DNA from: Natrinema ejinorense | Lineage (GTDB): Archaea > Halobacteriota > Halobacteria > Halobacteriales > Natrialbaceae | Assembly: GCF_002494345.1 (NCBI RefSeq) | Contig: NZ_NXNI01000001.1 | Coordinates: 3,534,001-3,598,000, forward strand | DNA length: 64,000 nucleotides | Direction of reading: 5' to 3' | Shown: positions 7,156 through 33,868 of the stretch, piece by piece | Position numbering within the stretch: the first letter of the stretch is position 1 | Layout of the letters: each line of letters starts with the position of its first letter | The notes under the pieces: generated by a model | What the model saw: only the letters and a program-made list of their open reading frames with translations | Database searches by the model: none | What the model was told of the DNA's origin: nothing | Program-made: the position numbers and the translations under genes

Positions 7156-8181
7156 TTACTCGAGGTCGGCCGTCGCCGTTCCGGTCAGCAGCGTCTCGCC
7201 GTCGGTCGTCCGCGCCTCGAGTGCCGTCTCGACGGTTCCCGAATCGCGATCGACCTCGACGACCTCGCCGGTGGCGACGACGGTGTCGCCGGGGAACACG
7301 CGCGACTGGAATCGGAGGCCGAAACTCGTGACGTCGGCGAGGTCGAACCAGTCCGTGACGACCCGCGAGGTGATTCCGGCGGTGAACATGCCCTGGCCGA
7401 AGACGCTCTCGTTGCCCGCCGCCGTCGCGTAGGGCTCGTCGTAGTGGATCGGGTTGAAGTCGCCGCTGGCACCCGCGTACTTGACGAAGTGTTGGCGCTC
7501 GAGATCCTCGACGACGACCGTCGGCCCGGCGTCGCCGACCGCGAGGTCGTCGACCGTGCGGACCCGCTCGAACTCGGCGGTCGTGTCCGACGGCGCTGCC
7601 GGCTCCGTTCGGGCGGCTCCGCCGTTCGTCTCGGCCGTTTCGGGGCCATCGGCCGGTTCGCCCGCCTCGCCGTCGCCGTTCCCATCGCCGTCGTCGACCG
7701 CACCCTGCGTTTCGATCGCGGTCGACCGATCGGTGAGGACGAGGTCGCCGTCTCGCGTCCGGTACTCGGTCTCGAGGACGGCGAAGGTCATCGTCCCCGC
7801 GCGGCCGCCCTCGCGCTGGAAGACGTCCGCGAGGGTGGTCGTCCCCTCGAGGACGTCGCCGACGTAGACCGGTCGCTCGTACTCGTGGGCCTGCTCGCCG
7901 TGGAGGACGTACTCCGGCTGGAAGCCGAGGTCGAAGCCCTTGCCGTCGACGTCGGCGGGGGTGTACCGCGGGAACCGGGCGACCTGCGTGTAGGTCAGCG
8001 GTGCGGGGGTCCGGTCGTGGCCCCGCTCGGCCGCTGTCGTCTCGTCGCGGAAAACCGGGTCGTCGGACGTGATCGCCCGTGCGAACTCCTCGACCTTGCC
8101 GGGTTCGATGCGAAACGCCTCGGCGGTGACCCGGGAGTCGCCGACCATCGCCTCGAGTTCCTCGAGGGACTTATTCGGCAT
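7156..8181 (-). CDS. Two-domain MaoC-like (R)-enoyl-CoA hydratase
   Basis: A 341-residue double hot-dog protein. Residues 1 to about 155 form a FAS1/MaoC-N-like domain. Residues 156 to 205 are an acidic Gly/Asp/Glu-rich linker. Residues 206 to 341 form the catalytic MaoC domain with the hydratase-2 motif SGDFNPIHYDEP (Asp241, Asn243, His246). It should hydrate trans-2-enoyl-CoA to a 3-hydroxyacyl-CoA, the substrate type that a retro-aldolase such as the 5557-6705/6702-7127 pair would cleave. It converges on the DUF35 gene. A small upstream ORF overlaps its first 11 bases. Confidence 0.9.
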   Translation of the reverse strand: MPNKSLEELEAMVGDSRVTAEAFRIEPGKVEEFARAITSDDPVFRDETTAAERGHDRTPAPLTYTQVARFPRYTPADVDGKGFDLGFQPEYVLHGEQAHEYERPVYVGDVLEGTTTLADVFQREGGRAGTMTFAVLETEYRTRDGDLVLTDRSTAIETQGAVDDGDGNGDGEAGEPADGPETAETNGGAARTEPAAPSDTTAEFERVRTVDDLAVGDAGPTVVVEDLERQHFVKYAGASGDFNPIHYDEPYATAAGNESVFGQGMFTAGITSRVVTDWFDLADVTSFGLRFQSRVFPGDTVVATGEVVEVDRDSGTVETALEARTTDGETLLTGTATADLE

Positions 8182-8266
8182 CGTGGCCCTCCGTGGCTTC
8201 TGGGGCGGTCGCGGGCTGGTCGGTCGTCGCGTCGCGTCGCACCTCGGTGCGGTATCCGCGTTTCAT
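8171..8266 (-). CDS. Possible 31-residue ORF overlapping the MaoC start
   Basis: The ORF begins MKRGYRTEVRRD and ends GHDAE, 11 bases inside the MaoC gene in another frame. A TATA-like CTGTTATGTC at about 8293-8302 lies some 30 bases upstream, so a leaderless start at 8266 (or 8275) is plausible. It has an even mix of charged residues and no recognisable domain. It may be a real microprotein coupled to MaoC, or only the leader of a longer transcript. Confidence 0.33.
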   Translation of the reverse strand: MKRGYRTEVRRDATTDQPATAPEATEGHDAE

Positions 8267-8388
8267 TGGCGACATGGTTTGCGGACGACTGACATAACAG
8301 TACCCTTCTCGGATGCGAGTCGCGTGAGACCGTTCGGTCGATCTGGATTCACCGGCTGAAGTTGTCCTCCCAACGGTGATGAGTGTCC

Positions 8389-8527
8389 TGTTATCGTGGC
8401 AACACTGAACGGCCACGCCCTCCCCAACCGATTCGTTCGCTCCTTTCAGTCGCTCACTCATCCCTCGCGCAATGTCGGCCCGCGTCTCACTCGTCGTTCG
8501 CCGCGGGCCAGCGCGCGCCACCGCGTG
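8389..8527 (+). repeat. Dispersed structured repeat, copy A
   Basis: Shares three blocks with copies at 32479-32680 and 32731-32870: a CTCCCCAACCGATTCG block, CTCATCCCTCGCGCAA, and GCGCGCCACCGC. Between the last two blocks is a hairpin with arms 8477-8484 and 8502-8509 (GGCCCGCG and its exact complement). The arm sequence differs from the other copies but is still self-complementary. Confidence 0.75.
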
Positions 8528-8543
8528 CCGACCGGTCGAATCG

Positions 8544-8549
8544 CTTATA
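8544..8549 (+). promoter_or_regulatory. TATA-like box for the mini-ORF/SDR unit
   Basis: CTTATA is centred about 31 bases before the ATG at 8578, so the predicted RNA 5' end falls at the mini-ORF start, not at the SDR start 71 bases further on. Confidence 0.5.
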
Positions 8550-8577
8550 CCGGCGGTCGATGAACCCGTAGACGCTC

Positions 8578-8652
8578 ATGGCAGAGAGTATCACACTCGG
8601 CTCGAGCGAACGGTCAGTAGAACGGACGCGCGTCGCGGAGGCTCACCGATGA
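8578..8652 (+). CDS. Possible 24-residue leaderless ORF coupled to SDR
   Basis: A 24-codon ORF starting MAESITLGSSERS and ending EAHR. Its TGA overlaps the ATG of the SDR gene as ATGA. It sits where a leaderless transcript from the box at 8544 should begin. The overlap and the promoter spacing argue that ribosomes translate it before reaching the SDR. No function is recognisable. Confidence 0.4.
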   Translation: MAESITLGSSERSVERTRVAEAHR

Positions 8653-9422
8653 CGACGGCACAGTTCAGCGTCGACGGGGAAACTGCGATCGTCACCGGCT
8701 CCTCGAGCGGCATCGGGAAGACGATCGTCGAGCGGTTCGCCGACGACGGCGCGAACGTCGTCGTCACGTCTCGAGAACTCGAGAACGTCGAGCCGGTCGC
8801 CGACGCGATCAACGAGAGCGATCGGCCGGGCGAGGCGATCGCGATCGAGTGCGACGTGACGGATCGGGAGGCCGTCCAGCGGCTCGTCGACGAGACCGTC
8901 GCGGAGTTCGGCGCGCTCGACGTGTTGATCAACAACGCGGGGGCGAGCTTTCAGGCTCCGCCGGCCGAGATCAGCGAGAACGGCTGGAAGACGATCGTCG
9001 ACATCAACCTCCACGGCACGTTCCACTGTTCCCAGATCGCCGGCGAGTACATGCGCGAGCACGGCGGCGGCCGGATCGTCAACTTCGCCAGCGTCGCGGG
9101 CACCCGCGGCTCGCGGTCGATGAGTCACTACGGGGCCGCCAAGGCCGGCGTCGTCAACTTCACGACCTCCGTCGCGGCCGACTGGGCAGAAGACGACATC
9201 TGGGTCAACTGCATCGCGCCCGGCCTCGTCGCGACCGAGGGTGTCCGGACCCAGATGGGCGTCGACGACGATGCGGACGAAATCGCCCGAACGACCCCGG
9301 ACCGCACCATCGGCAGCCCCGAGGAGGTCGCCGACCTCGCGCAGTTCCTCGCCAGTCCCGCCTCCTCGTACATGGTCGGCGAGACGGTTACGATCAAAGG
9401 ACGGCCGCGCCTCGAGGAGTAA
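8649..9422 (+). CDS. SDR-family NAD(P)-dependent oxidoreductase (FabG-like)
   Basis: A 257-residue classical short-chain dehydrogenase. The TGSSSGIG cofactor motif is at 16-23, NNAG at 96-99, and the catalytic Ser148, Tyr161 and Lys165 lie in SMSHYGAAK. The start MTTAQFSVDG at 8649 is chosen over a longer frame because the fold begins there and the ATG overlaps the stop of the small ORF before it. The likely reaction is oxidation or reduction of a 3-hydroxy/3-oxoacyl-CoA or a related alcohol, given acyl-CoA genes on both sides. The substrate is not determined. Confidence 0.9.
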   Translation: MTTAQFSVDGETAIVTGSSSGIGKTIVERFADDGANVVVTSRELENVEPVADAINESDRPGEAIAIECDVTDREAVQRLVDETVAEFGALDVLINNAGASFQAPPAEISENGWKTIVDINLHGTFHCSQIAGEYMREHGGGRIVNFASVAGTRGSRSMSHYGAAKAGVVNFTTSVAADWAEDDIWVNCIAPGLVATEGVRTQMGVDDDADEIARTTPDRTIGSPEEVADLAQFLASPASSYMVGETVTIKGRPRLEE

Positions 9423-31547: not shown

Positions 31548-31683
31548 TTCGGGTGGCTGACATCTGCTGTGGTCGGCGACCCGACTGCGGTTGCCACACC
31601 TGCTGGTGCCGCCGGCGGAGCCGATCGGCCACGGGGTATCCTCCTCGACAAGAACTAAGTCAGTACCCGTGAAGGTTGCTGGC

Positions 31684-32421
31684 ATGGCACGAAAGCGTGC
31701 TGCCGTCGTCGGCGGCGGCATCATGGGCGCCGGTATCGCACAGGTACTCGCACGGAACGGCTACGAGGTCGTCGTCCGCGAGATAAACGAGGAACTGGCC
31801 GCGGAGGCCCGCGAACGGGTCGTCTCGGGCAACTACGGCCTCGACGACGCGGTCGAGGGCGGCTATCTCTCCGAGGACGAGAAAGCCGACGTGCTCGAGC
31901 GACTGTCGTTCACGACGGACCTCGAGGCTGCCACCGACGGCACCGAGTTCGTCATCGAGGCGGTCACGGAGGACCTCGCGATCAAAGGACAGGTCTTCCG
32001 TGATCTGGACGAGGTAACGGACGATCAGCCGCTGTACTCGAACACTAGCGGCTTCTCGGTGACGTCGATCGCGAACGGCGTCTCCGACCCCTCACGGGTC
32101 GCGGTCACGCACTTCTTCAACCCGGTGCCGGTCATGTCGATGGTCGAGATCGTCCAGGCACCCCAGACCGACGCGGCCGTCGTCGAGCGGGCCGAGGACC
32201 TCGTCGACGAACTCGGGAAGACGAGCGTCACCATCGACGACGCGCCCGGGACCTACGGTTTCCTCGCCAACCGCTGTCACGCGGCGATGCGCGAGGAGGC
32301 CCAGAAGATCGTCGACGAGGGCATCGCGACGGAGGAGCAGGTCGACAAAGCGCTCGAGGAAGGGTACAACCTCCCCGTCGGCCCGTTCTCGCTGCGCGGC
32401 ATCGGCGAGGAGTGGGACTGA
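31684..32421 (+). CDS. 3-hydroxyacyl-CoA dehydrogenase, short C-terminus
   Basis: A 245-residue NAD-dependent enzyme oxidising 3-hydroxyacyl-CoA. Rossmann motif VVGGGIMGAGIAQVLARNGY at 7-26; SNTSGFSVTSIA and HFFNPVPVMSMVEIV carry the catalytic-domain residues; the C-terminal domain begins TYGFLANRCHAAMREEAQ. The protein stops right after PVGPFSLRGIGEEWD, whereas stand-alone family members are usually about 280 to 295 residues long and continue past this point. About 40 residues of the C-terminal dimerisation domain are thus absent. A structured repeat begins 57 bases after the stop. It may be a natural short variant or a 3' truncation. Confidence 0.82.
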   Translation: MARKRAAVVGGGIMGAGIAQVLARNGYEVVVREINEELAAEARERVVSGNYGLDDAVEGGYLSEDEKADVLERLSFTTDLEAATDGTEFVIEAVTEDLAIKGQVFRDLDEVTDDQPLYSNTSGFSVTSIANGVSDPSRVAVTHFFNPVPVMSMVEIVQAPQTDAAVVERAEDLVDELGKTSVTIDDAPGTYGFLANRCHAAMREEAQKIVDEGIATEEQVDKALEEGYNLPVGPFSLRGIGEEWD

Positions 32422-32478
32422 CGGCTCGGTTCCTCGAGTCGCTGCGAACGGTCGTCTCGTTCTGGACTGACCAACCGG

Positions 32479-32680
32479 CTGCGGTGGCGCGCGCTGTGTC
32501 GCGGTGAGGACTGCGAGGGCTGAGCGGAGCGAAGCCCTCGGAGACACGAGCGGTGACCAGCGGGAACCGCGAGTCGGAACGAACCGCGACACAACCTTGC
32601 GCGAGGGATGAGCGACCGACTGAACGGAGGGAGCGAATCGGCTGGGGAGGGTGTGGCCACTCCCTGCTGCCACGATAGCA
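32479..32680 (-). repeat. Dispersed structured repeat, copy B
   Basis: Oriented opposite to copies A and C. It holds the shared blocks GCGGTGGCGCGCGCT, TTGCGCGAGGGATGAG and GAATCGGCTGGGGAGGG. A perfect 11-base stem joins 32495-32505 to 32583-32593 (TGTGTCGCGGT and its complement). Inside it is a second perfect stem, GAGGGCT with AGCCCTC. The centre is longer than in A or C. Confidence 0.75.
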
Positions 32681-32730
32681 AGGCGCTCTCTGTCGTCGGT
32701 CCCGAACGAAAAAAGAGGGACGGGTGTCCC

Positions 32731-32870
32731 ACTACCGTGACAACATGGACTTACCACGCCCTCCCCAACCGATTCGCTCACTCACTCGCGTTCGTTCGCT
32801 CATCCCTCGCGCAACGTCGTCGACTGCCCTCGCTGTCACTCGGGCAGCCGACAGCGCGCGCCACCGCAGG
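32731..32870 (+). repeat. Dispersed structured repeat, copy C
   Basis: Same orientation as copy A. Stem arms at 32819-32829 and 32842-32852 (GTCGACTGCCC and GGGCAGCCGAC) pair over 11 positions with one G-T type pair. Together with copy B it forms an inverted pair separated by about 50 bases. Confidence 0.75.
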
Positions 32871-32916
32871 TTACGAAATCGATCCGAAGTGGGACGCCGT
32901 CCGTTCGTCTTCCCCG

Positions 32917-33714
32917 CTACTTCCCTTCGAATTCGGGCTCGCGGTCCTCGGCGAACGCCGCCGCGCCCTCCGCGTGGTCCTCGGTCTCGAGGAGCCGCTT
33001 GAAGAGCTGGTAGTCGTACTCCAGCCCCTCCTCGAGCCCGGAGTGGACCGCCATGTCCGCGGATTTCTTGATCGCCTGAATCGCCAGCGGTGCCTGGCCG
33101 GCGAGGTCGGTGACGAACTCGTCGACCTCCTCGTCGAATTCGTCGTCGCCGTAGACGTGGGTGACGATGCCCTCCTCGTCCGCCCGCGTCGCGGAGACGT
33201 GCTCGCCGGTCATCGCGAGTTCCTTCGCGACGGCGGGGCTGGCCAGCTTGCTGACGTACTGGACACCGCCGGCACCGGGGAGGATCCCGAGGTTGACTTC
33301 GGGGAAGCCAAAGGTGGACCCCTCGCTTGCCAGTCGGAAGTCACAGGCCAGTGCGGTCTCGAGGCCGCCGCCCAGACAGTAGCCGTCGATCTTCGCGACG
33401 ACGGGCGCGGGGAACTCCCGGATGACGTCGTAGTGGGAGCGGGCCGAGGAGCCGCCGGCCGACTCGTCGGAGAAGCCGCCGATGTCGGCCCCCGCACAGA
33501 AGGCCTTCTCGCCGGCTCCCTCGAGCACCACTGCTCGCAGGGCGACGCCCTCGCGCTCCTCGTTTTCTTCCTCGAGGGCCTCGAGCCCCGCGATAATGTC
33601 GTCCCTGAGCTGGCCGTTCAGCGCGTTCAGCGCGTCCGGCCGGTTCATCGTGAGGGTGCCGACACCGCGGTCGTCGTCGAACTCCACCAGGACAGTGTCC
33701 AGTGATTCGTCCAT
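32917..33714 (-). CDS. Enoyl-CoA hydratase/isomerase (crotonase family)
   Basis: A 265-residue crotonase that hydrates trans-2-enoyl-CoA. The oxyanion-hole block AFCAGADIGGF is at about 71-81. Two glutamates lie 20 residues apart as in true hydratases: Glu119 in LGGGLE and Glu139 in GFPEVNLGILPGAGG. The start MDESLDTVLV at 33714 gives the standard length; the open frame further upstream is not coding-like. It is convergent with the 3-hydroxyacyl-CoA dehydrogenase, and the two catalyse consecutive steps. Confidence 0.93.
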   Translation of the reverse strand: MDESLDTVLVEFDDDRGVGTLTMNRPDALNALNGQLRDDIIAGLEALEEENEEREGVALRAVVLEGAGEKAFCAGADIGGFSDESAGGSSARSHYDVIREFPAPVVAKIDGYCLGGGLETALACDFRLASEGSTFGFPEVNLGILPGAGGVQYVSKLASPAVAKELAMTGEHVSATRADEEGIVTHVYGDDEFDEEVDEFVTDLAGQAPLAIQAIKKSADMAVHSGLEEGLEYDYQLFKRLLETEDHAEGAAAFAEDREPEFEGK

Positions 33715-33868
33715 GGGCAGTGGGTACGGGCACCAATCAAAAAGGTGTACTGTTCGGCTCCCGCTCGCGACGTCCCTGGAGTCCCACGGCCGAAGCGAGC
33801 GCTCGCTCGAGTGTCGTCTCGGCCGCTGGCCGGAGACGACGAGAATCAACGAAATGATATGTGGCTGG

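Follow-up and report, generated by a model that had tools for sequence, protein, structure and literature searches.

A dispersed element of Halobacteriales with a three-helix fold and tandem G.A motifs, proposed to act as an RNA 3'-end module

Identification of the element

In the stretch of Natrinema ejinorense DNA analysed here (64,000 nucleotides, hereafter the window) a non-coding repeat occurs three times with a different central stem in each copy. This raises the question of whether a structure is preserved here by selection and, if so, on which strand and in what kind of molecule. Reading the window directly, we found the three copies where the earlier note had placed them, each with its own self-complementary stem. 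The arms of this variable hairpin, P2, pair perfectly in copy A (GGCCCGCG at 8477-8484 with CGCGGGCC at 8502-8509) and copy B (TGTGTCGCGGT at 32495-32505 with ACCGCGACACA at 32583-32593), and near-perfectly in copy C (GTCGACTGCCC at 32819-32829 with GGGCAGCCGAC at 32842-32852). The single imperfect pair of copy C, described in that note as one G-T, is present, but the plus strand has a mismatched A.C there, and only on the minus strand is it G.U. Model spans, conservation and within-genome matches indicate that the unit is longer than first delineated, and the hairpin noticed at the outset, although real, is only one of three conserved helices, P5 having gone unseen. The features in the window are the following:

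8368..8536, minus strand: copy A (covariance model R2, 160.7 bits, E 1.9e-50)
8466..8517, minus strand: P1 helix of copy A, enclosing P2 (arms 8466-8471 and 8512-8517; from P1 pairing over 90 copies)
8477..8509, minus strand: P2 variable hairpin of copy A (arms 8477-8484 and 8502-8509; direct reading and covariation over copies)
8430..8462, minus strand: P5 hairpin of copy A with three tandem G.A motifs (APC, column invariance and pairing over copies)
7156-8181, minus strand, and 8649-9422, plus strand: MaoC/HadAB-like dehydratase gene and SDR gene, whose divergent gap holds copy A (Pfam/NCBIfam and codon model)
32469..32701, plus strand: copy B, with an enlarged P2 loop (R2, 129.0 bits, E 3.6e-40)
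32495..32593, plus strand: P2 of copy B (arms 32495-32505 and 32583-32593; direct reading)
31591-32421, plus strand: 3-hydroxyacyl-CoA dehydrogenase gene, which copy B follows
32709..32879, minus strand: copy C, tail-to-tail with copy B (R2, 155.3 bits, E 1.2e-48)
32819..32852, minus strand: P2 of copy C (arms 32819-32829 and 32842-32852; direct reading)
32917-33849, minus strand: enoyl-CoA hydratase gene, which copy C follows

Copies B and C thus sit between convergent genes and copy A between divergent genes. As a side observation, both sites (7156-9422 and 31591-33849) lie among fatty-acid/acyl-CoA genes, as listed above.

A three-helix fold conserved on one strand

When the P2 arms of 91 copies were compared, 7.67 of 9 positions formed Watson-Crick pairs within a copy, as against 4.64 when arms were dealt between copies, the best of 2000 shuffles reaching 5.18; the complementarity is thus beyond chance. 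In the orientation of the earlier note the P2 mismatches of these 91 copies comprised 42 A.C and 8 G.T cells. Because an A.C on one strand is a G.U on the other, it is the strand complementary to the one first read that folds. Ninety copies were realigned in the corrected orientation (alignment A4). The top-ranked pairs by mutual information on A4 belonged to P2 and a third helix, and RNAalifold recovered P1, P2 and P5 from the A4 copies unaided. These three helices, P1 being of 6 bp, are shared by the 90 copies, which come from five genomes.

Over the 90 copies, 96.0% of 2201 cells were paired in the corrected orientation (78.1% when shuffled), 422 cells had changed on both sides (142 when shuffled), changes on both sides were seen in 21 of 25 pairs, and the covariation score was 0.532 (0.218 when shuffled). 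On all five measures the observed covariation was exceeded by none of 500 column shuffles, and sliding the partner columns as a control lowered pairing to 16-44%. P1 was paired in 99.8% of its cells, with changes on both sides in 4 of its 6 pairs, and P5 in 96.9%, its top APC pair being columns 58-64. It should be noted that related copies, within a genome or in neighbouring species, share ancestry, and the cell counts therefore overstate the number of independent events; a further reservation is that alignments A5 and A6 are fitted to the model. Many copies with unpaired stems would have refuted the proposal of a selected structure, whether in RNA or in single-stranded DNA; pairing held across the copies, and this core claim of the earlier note is upheld by the covariation tests.

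The P5 hairpin is typified by arms of the form GAU-GA-GC-GA-NN-GA-NN, where three tandem G.A pairs are near-invariant and the 2-bp steps that separate them covary freely. The first two motifs are retained in 88-89 of 90 copies and the third in 80 and 64, where gaps intrude. Read from the other strand, the G.A pairs would become C.T mismatches, so that one strand is singled out. The wobble pairs are likewise asymmetric, with 159 G.U against 14 A.C and G.U favoured in 19 of 20 informative pairs. This asymmetry alone cannot separate RNA from single-stranded DNA, which could give the same pattern; taken with the tandem G.A pairs, however, it led us to reject a DNA cruciform, since such an asymmetry is not expected from that or from any double-stranded role. 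Folded as a single sequence, the minus strand of copy C gave -63.2 kcal/mol (z -2.94) and contained exactly the P5 helix, whereas the plus strand gave -36.1 (z -0.39) without it. Single-copy energies are nonetheless weak evidence, with a z of only -0.76 for copy A against the -2.94 of copy C. In the 3' domain (P3/P4) the columns scarcely vary together and there is no covariation support, so that a pseudoknot there, judged from the alignment, is neither supported nor excluded. Paired mutations preserve the fold on one strand despite wide drift of the sequence, which indicates that the fold is under selection; as far as comparison of sequences allows, selection on the three-helix fold at the level of RNA, and less likely of single-stranded DNA, is well supported.

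The fading of conservation, together with the match span of closely similar copies within one genome, suggests a unit of about 165-190 nt. On the side of a CAGGAC box, conservation fades about 15 bases past the box, and on the GCGGUGG side it fades 20-30 bases past that sequence. Conserved single-stranded boxes surround the variable loops, and one conserved box is G-rich (UCGGYUGGGGAGG). The 3' part is specific to Natrialbaceae, its tail being U-rich and A-poor: 51 of the 90 tails have a U-tract, compared with 13 of 90 stretches of control DNA, and copy C ends in a clear U6 tract.

Copy number and phyletic distribution

Used as a BLAST query, copy C matched 37 places in its own genome, where covariance model R1 detected at least 27 copies, all on the main chromosome contig (C1). 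As a separate observation, these matches avoid 0.52-2.1 Mb of that contig and the two smaller contigs; the IS605 genes of the same chromosome lie at 1.49-1.54 Mb. By one protein, Natrinema gari and Natrinema altunense are the closest named genomes. Related complete Natrinema genomes carry at least 27 (G060), 51 (G062), 58 (G068) and 98 (G078) copies, and G053 has none among the matches listed in the model search. That some Natrinema genomes are without a copy among the matches listed suggests that the element is dispensable. Model R1 matched at least 96 of 125 genomes and at least 24 of 29 genera of Natrialbaceae, and R2 at least 223 of 392 genomes and at least 56 of 95 genera of Halobacteriales, in about a dozen families; counts per genome in these family- and order-wide searches are lower bounds. 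In most genomes of one genus from another family the element is present just once, retaining P1, P2 and P5 as well as the UCGGYUGGGGAGG box, but its 3' part differs. Copy positions in this genus are common within species groups and differ between them, and one copy lies among cobalamin-synthesis-like genes (judged from translations only).

Sequenced plasmids rarely carry the element (6 records), phage records gave no match, and IMG/VR gave none to one exact 18-base pattern; a viral origin was rejected on the strength of these phage and IMG/VR results.

Maintenance of the fold at individual sites

No full-length copy from the genome of the window in A4 is more than 76% identical to another, and the copies therefore dispersed long ago. 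At 15 same-site pairs of copies in this genome (G000) and its near relative G060, 22 formed pairs had changed and 21 of them still pair, 10 through single and 11 through double changes, only one being broken. At the two sites of the window the element occurs in many Natrinema species with very different stems; across these species 94.1% of cells are paired and 168 cells are double-changed, against 54.5 when shuffled. Where a genome has few copies or none, the element at these sites is degraded or absent. This comparative evidence shows that individual loci keep the fold even as their sequence changes, and the retention of structure at the same sites is evidence against a decaying transposon relic.

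Genomic context and a proposed 3'-end role

Of 112 copies classified in six genomes, 70 have an upstream gene oriented into the RNA and 42 have one that points away, as at copy A; this mixed orientation rules out an obligate terminator of the upstream gene. Both neighbours could be called for 72 copies, of which 34 were in convergent gaps, 18 antisense to both, 10 sense to both and 10 in divergent gaps. Copies whose upstream gene points away are about as good as the others in pairing (95.6%) and in U-tracts (17 of 33), so that the element cannot merely be the 3' end of the upstream gene. Adjacent copies were tail-to-tail at every site counted, about 16 distinct sites by eye.

A role at 3' ends is favoured by three features: the U-richness of the tail, the over-representation of convergent gaps and the tail-to-tail arrangement of paired copies. 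We propose that the copies belong to a new family of structured RNA elements that are dispersed in Halobacteriales and act as a 3'-end module; our judgement on this is evenly poised, with transcription and function being inferred in the absence of expression data. The predicted strand would be transcribed by whichever transcription crosses the intergenic region, and a factor such as a protein reading the G.A helix may recognise the folded RNA. With its U-rich tail it could then form a module ending or stabilising transcripts, and tail-to-tail pairs would serve both strands. We offer only tentatively the wider inference that this is an order-wide class of archaeal RNA, marked by an unusual helix in which three tandem G.A motifs are regularly spaced, and that its chromosomal copies, up to nearly 100 in number, are each individually selected and make up a genome-wide regulatory or transcript-ending system without catalogued counterpart. 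Should the element indeed end or protect transcripts, it would bear on how archaea define the 3' ends of their RNAs.

Alternative explanations

The candidate natures listed in the earlier note included both a non-coding RNA and a mobile element; a non-coding or cis-acting RNA fits best, and an ordinary mobile element (transposon, PATE or retroelement) is unsupported. Alternatively, each copy could be a gene for a small trans-acting RNA, which might, for instance, bind a protein or sequester some partner; the multiplicity of copies would then provide dosage or be a selfish by-product. This would agree with the retention of pairing and U-tail regardless of the direction of neighbouring genes, with the conserved single-stranded boxes around variable loops, and with the genome group of another family that keeps mostly single copies at common sites. 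However, no conserved promoter was evident upstream, where no AT-rich hexamer recurs and no signal lies at a fixed distance; at least 27-98 diverged copies per genome would be unusual for such an RNA, and some genomes are entirely without the element among the matches listed. We regard trans action as unlikely, if still worth entertaining, beside the 3'-end module.

Palindrome-associated transposable elements (PATEs), known from the haloarchaeon Haloquadratum, are non-coding repeats that have palindromes near their ends and fall into classes heterogeneous in sequence (PMC3119063). Like them, the present element is haloarchaeal, non-coding, dispersed, heterogeneous in sequence, palindromic and interrupted by other small hairpin elements. 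It might accordingly be an IS200/IS605-derived element of this type, with a strand-specific single-stranded DNA hairpin for an HUH transposase, and use as a single strand would yield the observed asymmetry. Unlike PATEs, however, it has no tnpA/tnpB association, possesses three helices with tandem G.A pairs and strong covariation on one strand, and occupies the same site across species. The presence of tnpA (PF01797) is uncorrelated with copy number: G060, G062 and G078, with at least 27, 51 and 98 copies, have no tnpA, whereas G053, G058, G059 and G067 have tnpA and no copy among the matches listed in the family search. Around the eight tnpB/tnpA loci of the genome of the window there was no full model match, only two short partial ones of 23 and 43 bases. 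Candidate polymorphic insertion sites were not clean empty sites, and structure is retained at old sites. A role of the PATE kind thus appears improbable, and descent from PATEs or IS605 was rejected for want of a common full-length sequence and of a tnpA correlation. The IS200/IS605 omega RNAs of haloarchaea (PMC12558985) are structured RNAs linked to mobile DNA; the present element differs in having no adjacent tnpB and no full model match at the tnpB loci of its own genome.

Pairing might also persist without selection, through template-switch correction within a palindrome or gene conversion that spreads ready-paired stems. Stem types at the B/C site do differ wholesale between species, and the spacer of about 58 bases between the tail-to-tail copies at this site is inverted, as its reverse complement, in G075 (L216) relative to G068 (L209), which indicates that the arms recombine and that recombination between tail-to-tail copies occurs. 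Nevertheless, strand-symmetric mechanisms cannot yield the excess of G.U over A.C, nor can they keep three tandem G.A motifs while the intervening base pairs vary, and we give this possibility very little weight. With its spacer inverted in this way, the B/C pair flanks an invertible segment; the spacer is otherwise conserved across several species.

Equally little credence attaches to the copies being ordinary decayed MITE relics. They are dispersed, non-coding and intergenic, their number varies by lineage, and the tail-to-tail pairs resemble long inverted repeats; but single copies have two different ends and no terminal inverted repeats, the handful of sites examined showed no clean empty site, and most diverged copies still pair. 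When two near-identical genomes were compared for clean insertion sites, the sites were rearranged or held decayed versions, leaving the exact ends and any target duplication undefined. SINE-like retro-mobility was ruled out, since reverse transcriptase PF00078 is found in none of 29 Natrinema genomes.

Comparison with catalogued elements and RNAs

The bacterial ERIC, REP/BIME and Nemis repeats are intergenic, occur in tens to hundreds of copies in either orientation, and have been proposed to be transcribed as structured RNA. The present element resembles them in its many intergenic copies in either orientation and its proposed transcribed structure, but it is archaeal, its fold is far better conserved than the sequence of its stems, it has several helices with non-canonical pairs, and no RAYT-like partner was identified. 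As regards a RAYT transposase gene flanked by the repeat, the genome of the window has one Y1_Tnp, at 1.513 Mb of C1 and far from the copies, and several copy-rich genomes have none.

The discovery route is that by which comparative genomics has found candidate structured RNA classes through covariation in intergenic DNA (e.g. PMC2864571). Rfam 15 contained no family matching at gathering score and gave four noise-level matches at E<=5; a miRNA match among this noise is attributable to the long inverted repeat formed by a tail-to-tail pair. This absence contrasts with the abundance of the element in chromosomes and its recurrence across about a dozen haloarchaeal families. Among the open-licence papers searched, none has the conserved strings in a haloarchaeal context. 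With dozens of naturally varying sequences for one fold in each genome, the element is a rare resource for RNA structure work, and intergenic palindromes of haloarchaea ought to be tested for one-strand covariation before being labelled as transposon relics.

Associated sequence motifs

Several copies, among them L006, L018, L222 and L178 (which lies at the same site as copy A), are interrupted in the middle, in the region of the P5 loop, by a small palindromic cassette, GGAAGACGC..GCGTCTTCC, reminiscent of the SMR elements that insert into PATEs of Haloquadratum. Another dispersed motif, GGGTGGGACTGAAAGGGGC, lies downstream of the RNA core in a different family (L379-L388), and in Natrialbaceae it is found alone or beside copies (also at L123 1445, L362 8056 and L395 4164).
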